The notes under the pieces were generated by a model. It saw nothing but the letters and a program-made list of their open reading frames with translations, had not been told where the DNA came from and did no database searches. From Terriglobales bacterium (lineage in GTDB: Bacteria; Acidobacteriota; Terriglobia; Terriglobales; Acidobacteriaceae), in the NCBI GenBank assembly GCA_035573675.1, contig DATMAB010000010.1:1-64000 (forward strand): 64,000 nt of DNA, given 5' to 3'. The position numbers and the translations under genes were made by a program. This document shows, piece after piece, positions 11,558-14,500 of the stretch. Each line of letters starts with the position of its first letter. Positions within the stretch are counted from its first letter, which is position 1.

Positions 11558-14500
11558 ATGCCGACCGGCTCTGAAATCCGTGAGATGTTCCTGCGCTACT
11601 TCGAGGAGCGCGGGCACCGGCGCGTGCATTCCTCCTCGCTCGTTCCCGCCAACGACCCCACGCTGCTCTTCACCAACGCCGGCATGAACCAGTTCAAAGA
11701 CGTCTTCCTGGGCCTGGAAAAGCGCGACTACGCGCGCGCCTGCTCCTCGCAGAAGTGCGTGCGCGCCGGCGGCAAGCACAACGACCTGGAAAACGTCGGC
11801 TTCACCAACCGCCACCACACCTTCTTCGAGATGCTGGGCAACTTCAGCTTCGGCGACTATTTCAAGAAAGAAGCCATCGAATTTGCCTGGGAGCTGATCA
11901 CCTCGAAGTCGTGGTTCGGCCTGCCCAAGAATAAGCTCTACTTCACTATCTTCCAGGGCGAAGAAGGCGTGCCGCGCGATTCGGAGGCCTACGACGGCTG
12001 GCTGAAGGTCGGCGCGCCCCAGGACCGCATCCGCGAGTTCGGCTCCAAGGACAATTTCTGGGCCATGGGCGAGACCGGCCCGTGCGGCCCCTGCAGCGAG
12101 ATCCACTACGACATGGGCCCGGCGGCCAGCGACCTCGGTCACAAGGATTGTGAGTTCGGTTGCGAGTGCGGCCGCTACATCGAGATCTGGAACCTGGTGT
12201 TCATGCAGTTCGACCGCGACGCCTCGGGCAAGCTCAACCCGCTGCCCAAGCCCTGCGTGGATACCGGCGCCGGCCTCGAGCGCCTGGCCGCGGTTCTGCA
12301 AGGCAAGGTCTCGAATTACGAGACCGACCTGTTCACGCCGCTCATCCGCCGCGCCGCGGAGCTGACCGGCGTCTCGCTGGAAAAAGAGCTGGAGAAAGAG
12401 GCGCACCAGAAGACCGCCGCCTCGCTGCGCGTGATCGCTGACCACGCCCGCGCCACCACGTTCCTTATCTCCGATGGCGTCGTGCCTTCAAATGAAGGCC
12501 GCGGCTATGTCCTGCGCAAGATCATGCGGCGCGGCATCCGCCATGGACGGCTGCTGGGGCAGGACAAGCCGTTTCTGCACGAGATGGTCTACGCAGTTCG
12601 CGACGCGATGAAGGACGCGTATCCGGAACTGGTTGAAAGCGCTGACCGCGTGGCGAAGCTCGTATTCGAAGAAGAGCGCCGCTTTGAACACACACTGGCC
12701 CTTGGCCTCCGGAGATTGCAGCAGGACTTGGACTTGGTACGGCCACCACGAGTCTATGACCTAGGACAACAAGTCCTCGTTGAGCGACGTACTTACTTAC
12801 CTACCAAACACAAGGAGTTTCCAGCCGGAACAAACCCGGGCGTTGCAATCTCGCGGATAAGTTCTGCCGTGATGCCGGGCGTTCCGGCCTATCTGTTCTT
12901 CGAGGTCGATGGCAAACTCTACCTCTTGATCAATGGATCCCCCGCCGAAATCACTACTCTAGCGGGGCTCAGGTTCCCTGTTGAAGCGGGAATGTATCGA
13001 ATAGTTCCGATTGGGGAATACGACAAGACCAAGGTAGAGTGGGCTCCGAGATATTCGGGCGAAGCTGCCTTTAGGCTCTTTGAAACCTTCGGCCTTCCTC
13101 GCGACTTCATTGAAGACGCATGCCGTGATCAAGGGGTTACATTCGATGCGGCGGGTTTCGAACAGGCCATGGAGACCGAGCGCGCTCGCGCTCGCGCCTC
13201 CTGGAAGGGCGCGGCCAAGGAAGCGGCTTCACCCGCTTTCCGCGAACTGAACAAGACCTTCTTCGAAGGCTACAAGCGCCTGGAATCCGACGGCTCCAAG
13301 GTCCTCGCCATCGTCAAGGACGGAGTCGGTGTGGCCGGACTCAAGCCGGGCGAAGAGGGCGAGGTCGTGCTCGACCACACGCCCTTCTATGCCGAATCCG
13401 GCGGGCAGGTGGGCGACGTAGGCTGGTTCTACAACGACGAGCACAACTTCGTGGTGGCGGAAGTCCGCGGCTGTTATTTTCCGGTGCAGGGTGTGCGCGC
13501 GCACAAGGTCATTGCGCGCCAGCCCCTGCGCGTGGGCGAGCGGGTGGATGCGGTCGTCAACGCAGAAGTCCGCGAGGCTACCGTGCGCAACCACACGGCT
13601 ACGCACTTGTTGCACGCGGCGCTGCGCGAGGTGCTGGGCAAGCACGTCAAGCAAGCCGGGTCGCTGGTGGCTCCGTCGCACCTGCGCTTCGACTTCTCGC
13701 ACTACGCCGCGGTGGCCGACGAAGAACTGCAGGACATCGAGGACCTCACCAACAAGGAAGTGCTGCGCAACCGCAAAGTCGAGGTCTTCGACGACGTCCC
13801 CATCGACACGGCCATCCACGAGATGAAGGCCATGGCGCTGTTCGGGGAGAAATACGGGGAGCGCGTGCGCGTGGTCAAGATCGGCGATTTCTCGGTGGAG
13901 CTGTGCGGCGGCACCCACACCGGCGCCACCGGCGAGATCGGCCTGGTGAAGCTGCTCGATGAATCGAGCGTCTCCGCCGGCGTGCGCCGCGTGAACGCCG
14001 TTACGGGTGAGGGCTCGCTCGCCCACTTCCGGCAGGACCATGCGCTCGAGCACGTGGTCACGAGCATCATCCCACGCGCGGCCGCCGAGGCCTCTCCCGC
14101 GGAGGCGCTGAAGCGCGAGCTGGAGCGCCGCGAAGAAGAAGTCAAGCGCCTGAGGAAAGAGCTGGAGCAAGCGCGCATGAAGTCGGCGGCCTCGACGCTC
14201 AGCTCCATCGAAGAGAAGGTCCGGGTGGTCAAGGGCGTCAAGGTTCTAGCGCATCGCGTGGATAATCTCGAGCGCCCGCAGATGCGCACGCTCGTCGATA
14301 ATCTCCGCCAGAAGCTGGGCTCAGGCGTGGTGGCGCTGGGTTCGGCGCAGGCCGAGGACGGCAAAGTCGCGCTCATCGTTGGCGTCACCAAGGACCTGAC
14401 CAGCCGCATTTCCGCGGGCAAGGTCATAGCGCCGGTGGCGCAGAAAGTCGGCGGCTCGGGCGGCGGCCGTCCGGATATGGCCGAGGCCGGCGGCAAAGAC

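Follow-up and report, generated by a model that had tools for sequence, protein, structure and literature searches.

A hypervariable linker beside the tRNA-reading motif of alanyl-tRNA synthetase in a family of Acidobacteriota, with a probable segment replacement in one genome

The linker that joins the tRNA-recognition helix of alanyl-tRNA synthetase (AlaRS) to the motif reading the G3-U70 base pair is a hot spot in one bacterial family. Its length varies widely between close relatives, related pieces are shared patchily between genera, and in the genome analysed here the linker lies in a bounded tract of divergent sequence. We consider it probable that recombination between alaS alleles exchanges accessory-domain cassettes at this linker and that the insert of this genome is one of them.

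The alaS gene occupies positions 11558–14563 (forward strand) of the window, the whole 64,000-nucleotide stretch of DNA that was analysed. It is a single unbroken open reading frame of 1001 amino acids that encodes a complete AlaRS, as seen from the frame itself, from Pfam and from AlaRS relatives in the PDB. The domains tRNA-synt_2c, tRNA_SAD and DHHA1 all score above the Pfam cut-offs and lie on one chain, as in a bacterial AlaRS. Residues His679, His683, Cys783 and His787, which we take to be the metal ligands of the editing site, are invariant in an AlaRS alignment of 58 rows. The genome contains one match to alaS, and the tRNA genes within the window are those for Thr, His and Pro only. 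Aminoacyl-tRNA synthetases are textbook examples of conserved enzymes, and AlaRS serves both phylogeny and studies of how the code arose.

Two anchors enclose the linker. The left anchor, the end of the tRNA-recognition helix (residues 373–391; 12674–12730, forward strand), is defined by alignment with solved AlaRS structures, and the helix spans residues 357–394 in our model. The right anchor, a helix followed by the motif (residues 499–512; 13052–13093, forward strand), is defined by alignment and by the published Archaeoglobus AlaRS–tRNA structure, in which the motif lies in the minor groove at G3-U70 (PMC6451123). The same paper gives Tyr-Asp as the usual form of the motif and Phe-Glu as a natural variant in C. 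elegans mitochondrial AlaRS (PMC6451123). Phe508 and Glu509 of the window protein align with the Tyr-Asp pair that reads G3-U70, and the protein carries the Phe/Tyr-Glu/Asp motif of AlaRS; the insert ends about 10 residues ahead of it. Of 156 sequences, 86 have Glu and 70 have Asp at the equivalent of residue 509 (13082–13084).

The insert itself, this genome's linker cassette, comprises residues 392–498 (12731–13051, forward strand). Alignment to the solved E. coli AlaRS breaks off at residue 391 (chain residue 381) and restarts at residue 499 (chain residue 389), leaving 107 residues where E. coli AlaRS has about 7. The extra residues described in the initial annotation are thus real. Its observation of low GC content is also borne out, with 0.54 in the insert versus 0.62–0.65 in the flanking alaS stretches and the locus, and 0.52–0.59 in 150-base windows between 12675 and 13199. 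In alaS, the twelve 50-codon windows with the lowest GC3 all begin within codons 361–491, which agrees with the less GC-biased codon use noted there out to about position 13160 and means that the dip in composition is wider than the insert. A second GC dip, to about 0.55, lies at 11775–11999, away from the insert and unrelated to it.

Among the six reading frames of the insert, its own is the sole fully open one. We found no direct repeat or target-site duplication around it, no second copy in the window and, by protein search, none in its own genome. No convincing relative was detected in 398 genomes of the family, 297 genomes of the phylum, phages, plasmids, viral contigs, Pfam, PHROGs or NCBIfam. 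The best family match has a one-genome E-value of 0.0016 (36% over about 71 residues), which is unconvincing given the chance expectation over 398 genomes. With the limit set at an E-value of 10, matches in the phylum were scattered over 92 further genomes of the 297, the best having an E-value of 0.0055. The sole PDB match, 1qlm (whole-sequence E-value 8e-4), was rejected as a homologue, its best-domain i-Evalue being 1.

A sequencing artefact is unlikely, since in relatives, among them the single-contig genomes G339, G464, G523 and G414, this point is occupied by other inserts that are likewise in frame. The two anchors are in frame with each other in 149 of 150 entries that contain both (the exception, G445, has overlapping anchors), and none of 156 linkers contains a stop codon. 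A self-splicing intron or another unread stretch is contradicted by these in-frame, stop-free linkers and by the apparent purifying selection in one genus (see below). In agreement with the initial annotation, the insert does not look like an intein; it lacks a C-terminal HN and matches no Hint-type family. More generally, no insert of at least 25 residues ends in HN, and no Hint-type family of Pfam or NCBIfam was found over 60 inserts. We also rejected a Rickettsia-type palindromic element, for which a second copy of the insert was missing from the window and, by protein search, from the genome; the 77 long inserts fall into 59 clusters, and the two cassettes followed across the family (A4 and A5, see below) are clearly present in alaS only.

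Linkers of 1–189 residues occur in 148 genomes of the family, with at least 25 residues in 77 and at least 40 in 64. These genomes comprise 141 among the matches listed (219 of 250 genomes matched) and seven that were hand-picked, all of which have long linkers (36 or more residues); L304 (G208, 3 residues) from the same set was left out. Without the hand-picked genomes, 70 of 141 linkers have at least 25 residues and 60 have at least 40. G004 and G445 were excluded, and the linker of G014 was taken from L187 in place of L017. The frame of G140 ends 225 codons past the linker, and the gene may therefore be broken or misassembled. Large differences are found inside single genera: the linkers extracted from g9 have 3, 3, 3, 3, 66, 77, 79 and 87 residues, and those of g198 have 26, 32, 39, 42, 43 and 72.

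Seven genomes of f2, a family of the same order, have linkers of 6–38 residues. In the other families of the phylum, the linker has 6–10 residues in all 44 extractable loci of 49 (L271–L300 are the 30 best-scoring profile-search hits; L293, L316, L320, L323 and L328 yielded no linker). The normal length of about 15 residues assumed in the initial annotation therefore does not describe the phylum, and it comes close to the 16 residues of the sister genome G001. In 80 mostly proteobacterial loci, kept from 125 confirmed in a contig scan whose patterns reach close relatives only, 78 linkers have 6–11 residues and the exceptions have 17 and 92; these loci are mostly AlaRS, aligned along the conserved part that follows the insert. 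The best-scoring locus of the scan, L191 from an Acidobacteria MAG, has a 9-residue linker.

The 92-residue exception is an insert in a Nitrosomonadales MAG (L200:4836-5111, VFJL01000065.1) with a GC content of 0.43 versus 0.57 and 0.60 in its flanks. It lies at the same point of AlaRS, outside the phylum, and is the sole long one in the 80 loci. It gave no blastp match to the window insert, their local alignment score was equalled in 73 of 1000 shuffles, and no kinship to the 77 family inserts was found. The site is thus not wholly private to the family and can accept an insert elsewhere, though rarely in this sample.

Within AlaRS, the standard deviation of length in 110 full-length proteins is 37.4 residues at this site and 13.3 at the next, a second, weaker length-variable site at residues ∼271–286 (12368–12415) that reaches up to 85 residues in the family. 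An HMM search returned AlaRS in two pieces for 13 of 20 family genomes versus 13 of 173 outside the family. The two-piece match of G014 reflects an alaS spread over two contigs; outside the family, ten of the 13 belong to f24, and eight of those have the N-terminal part elsewhere, that is, a split gene. As a control, ThrRS hardly varies in length (1,686–1,743 nt in 55 of 59 matches, the other four being partial); ValRS is a weaker control, its full matches differing by some 80 codons. The strong ValRS profile match stops near position 595 in G346, G010, G111 and G005, in open frames of 939–1000 residues, hinting at another variable site in that enzyme; weaker second pieces fell outside the E-value limit of this search. 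One bin, G442, contains two alaS copies (L145 and L146) that are 94% identical far upstream, one of them cut by a contig end; the second copy may be contamination.

We compared alaS of the window codon by codon with that of G001, a genome of the same genus whose 16-residue linker has a form common to several other genera. Identical codons number 269 of 354 over residues 1–354, fall to 13 of 37 over residues 355–391 and 15 of 43 over residues 499–541, and recover to 15 of 19 over residues 542–560. The contrast between the flanks (28 of 80) and the upstream part has a Fisher p of 8e-12. The comparison runs to residue 560, where the G001 contig ends, with residues 561–891 outside it; the last 110 residues, found on a separate G001 contig, are 95% identical to those of the window. 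The synonymous difference rises from 0.35 far upstream to 0.57 over the 40 codons preceding the insert, and it is 0.78 over the 43 codons that follow. On the simplest reading of this comparison, about 550 bp including the insert look replaced; the probable replaced segment covers residues ∼359–541 (12632–13180, forward strand), its edges being approximate. The alternative is accelerated change following the insertion. Judged against G001, the insert is of recent date in this lineage.

The short linker of G001 and the bounded drop in identity, with recovery on both sides, support the earlier impression that the insert looks acquired. Its presence in most of the phylum by vertical descent, which the initial annotation had allowed for, was not found. 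The idea of a single insertion has to be modified: the insert is only one of the alleles present at a site that is hypervariable across the family. A donor was not found among the four nearest backbone relatives of the window AlaRS, which have flank identities of 0.55–0.62 and 0.63–0.70.

Iterated profile searches group the 77 long inserts into 59 clusters. Since clustering may miss remote kinship, this number is not a count of origins, and one seven-member cluster contains a 168-residue insert that is matched along a short part. Eight of the 59 clusters contain more than one genome; one of these lies inside genus g38 and seven span different genera. Searches of Pfam, PHROGs and NCBIfam with 60 inserts gave scattered, chance-like single matches with E-values of 0.0037 to 0.1, and the only stronger matches were to the AlaRS models PF01411 and TIGR00344. 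On a tree of 110 tips built without the region (a quick LG+G4 search with the 110 of 149 entries that have a full-length frame), the long or short state changes at least 29 times. Insert relatives in different genera share 26–65% identity, so that old common ancestry followed by many losses is possible. Cassette A4 is found inside alaS in genera g9, g228 and g33 (3 of 329 family genomes) and cassette A5 inside alaS in g9 and g35 (2 of 329), with an additional weak, stop-broken match to A5 in G406.

One cross-genus pair has unusually similar flanks. G515 (g9) and G499 (g228) have the 87-residue cassette A4 in common (49% identity), flanked by sequence with identities of 0.80 and 0.86, versus 0.78 in the upstream and 0.68 in the downstream backbone. 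None of 400 background pairs with like upstream identity, unrelated inserts and both flank values present matches this pair in both flanks (medians 0.57 and 0.63); the background pairs are mutually non-independent. Exchange is thus better supported. The four AlaRS proteins closest to that of G515 in their backbone have linkers of 3 residues. The second cassette, A5, common to G477 (g35) and G467 (g9) with 47% identity, contains the conserved stretch GEYWG-E-GTNH; the flanks of this pair are ordinary (0.57 and 0.72), and among the cross-genus pairs only G499/G515 exceeds the background.

We further compared close pairs of genomes that differ in their linker with close pairs that have the same linker (14 independent pairs each). 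The median non-synonymous difference is 0.167 near the linker and 0.052 far from it in different-linker pairs, versus 0.042 and 0.038 in same-linker pairs (p = 1.6e-5 for the contrast). Since linkers are short in 13 of the 14 same-linker pairs (one pair is from f2), a different linker is confounded with a long one, and the contrast cannot tell exchange apart from adaptation to a long insert. For synonymous change, different-linker pairs show a marginal excess in the flanks (p = 0.074), which becomes clear only when the comparison is limited, post hoc, to closer pairs (7 versus 8, p = 0.009). Amino-acid co-adaptation may account for some of the change in the flanks.

We infer homologous recombination as the route by which cassettes are exchanged, with a donor outside the genomes sampled. 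Conserved alaS sequence on both sides of the linker would permit recombination with a segment from another alaS allele; cassettes would thereby move between genera, and close relatives would come to differ. In the window genome, one such event would have replaced about 550 bp (residues ∼359–541). The cassette would be translated within AlaRS and alter the surface beside the acceptor stem, and the enzyme should remain an AlaRS.

A rather unlikely alternative is that the linker is a tolerated loop of vertical descent, in which an ancestral linker insertion of this family evolves by slippage, duplication and deletion at a rate that leaves relatives looking unrelated, with no exchange and little function; lower GC content would then reflect weaker constraint. 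Such a history would account for the resemblance of some longer linkers to an extended form of the 16-residue one (APLVAEK...), for the g38 cluster, which looks vertical, and for one 189-residue insert that is internally repetitive by eye, and the flank excess is, as described, partly confounded with linker length. It does not readily explain the bounded change with raised synonymous difference in the window genome, nor related cassettes in distant genera whose close relatives lack them, including one pair with unusually similar flanks.

Two further observations argue against a tolerated loop. Shared cassettes in close species are, by dN/dS, under purifying selection, with constraint demonstrated in one genus: the insert of G403/G473 has a dN/dS of 0.07. 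In G499/G515, the value for the insert (0.24) is higher than those for the backbone (0.18) and the flanks (0.13 and 0.08); saturation affects many of the other pairs. By their composition, moreover, the inserts are not disordered filler but globular, with 0.29 order-promoting and 0.073 aromatic residues in 64 inserts versus 0.32 and 0.078 in the window AlaRS backbone. Their GC content is below that of the flanks in 51 of 60 inserts of at least 40 residues (the 60 of 64 for which flanks were computed), with means of 0.53 and 0.61. Constraint within cassettes, together with their sharing between genera, favours some function over none.

AlphaFold predicts the cassette in a G515 fragment as a helical bundle that continues the recognition helix (block pLDDT 94–98, pTM 0.61; 47 alignment rows, three of which bear the cassette). 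A Foldseek search with this fragment matched AlaRS only at E-values below 0.01. For the window AlaRS, the prediction is poor (pTM 0.48), also in the conserved N-terminal part, and the insert has a block-mean pLDDT of 36–68 with one hairpin at residues ∼445–464. The beta-rich domain proposed in the initial annotation is therefore not recovered beyond this hairpin. The window insert may nonetheless be folded and functional.

Turnover at the linker could also be driven from outside if a phage protein, a toxin or a mobile-element product attacked the AlaRS loop and rare cassettes that block it were favoured. We regard such an arms race as unlikely. Rare, patchy alleles common to several genera and quick turnover at one site are what it would produce, and the excess of non-synonymous flank change in pairs with differing cassettes is consistent with it, subject to the confounding with linker length. 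However, no dN/dS above 1 was seen among the pairs computed, and our literature search found no such AlaRS-directed factor; we know of no attacker of AlaRS at this loop. A more specific form, in which the loop is the contact surface of an AlaRS-directed antagonist and frequency-dependent selection keeps many rare cassettes moving between genera by recombination in alaS, as at a histocompatibility-like locus, seems to us quite unlikely. If turnover is selected, a hidden antagonist of AlaRS would be indicated.

The initial annotation had suggested that a single acquired domain, stable in this lineage, might change tRNA recognition. The position of the insert just ahead of the G3-U70 motif would suit such a role, but the sister genome lacks the insert and relatives hold unrelated ones. 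Nor is the Asp or Glu state of the motif evidently tied to insert length: linkers of at least 25 residues occur in 39 of 70 sequences with Asp versus 41 of 86 with Glu. We therefore find this proposal very doubtful. Least probable of all are scars of cutting, in which a homing-type or defence nuclease would repeatedly cut conserved alaS DNA near the loop, the target being lost through in-frame repair that captures DNA and the flanks being changed by gene conversion: a single site, unrelated inserts, bounded flank change and GC content mostly below that of the flanks agree with it, but short linkers vary widely in sequence with no conserved target evident there, and cassette sharing between genera needs no cutting.

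The exchange of cassettes between alaS alleles, which remains our preferred reading, has partial parallels. Rickettsia palindromic elements add in-frame extra peptides to essential genes and form repeat families across many genes; the AlaRS inserts likewise are in-frame peptides in an essential gene, but here one gene holds many unrelated pieces. Restriction specificity subunits have exchangeable target-recognition domains that are swapped by recombination between conserved flanks. As these are other proteins with another function, the analogy is limited to the mechanism of exchange. Lineage-specific variable insertions in housekeeping proteins are described for IF-2 and FtsK (PMC9425974). The AlaRS linker resembles them as a region of variable length in a conserved housekeeping protein that is longer in certain lineages (PMC9425974, in the part available), and differs in that its cassettes are mostly unrelated, recur in some cases in distant genera and lie beside the tRNA-reading motif; that part gives no variable region of AlaRS. 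Aminoacyl-tRNA synthetases are among the preferred hosts of inserted domains (PMC13114784). The case described there is a recurrent, conserved family, the LeuRS-type editing domain; here a long insert is, in most genomes that have one, peculiar to that genome. We found no prior description of this variable site of AlaRS in the open-licence literature.

Dozens of unrelated, apparently exchangeable pieces in the tRNA-reading region of AlaRS point to an unexpected tolerance and a probable recombination hot spot. For AlaRS, the inserts amount to a natural library of tolerated pieces. The region is best left out of AlaRS trees in this group.

The genomes outside the family that gave AlaRS in two pieces include a separate case. 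In genus g71 of family f24, in the same phylum, AlaRS is apparently encoded by two genes (L311, L313, L317, L325 and L343–L350). Nanoarchaeum equitans is known to have a split AlaRS; no match to the phrase "split alanyl-tRNA synthetase" was found in the literature searched. At the four g71 loci inspected, an in-frame stop precedes the part for tRNA recognition and editing, which starts near residue 285. All eight genomes searched have a separate frame of 276–309 residues elsewhere that matches residues 3 to 270–274, and in the three genomes with both parts on one contig, these lie ∼16–124 kb apart. A relative from the same family, L312, has an ordinary fused alaS.
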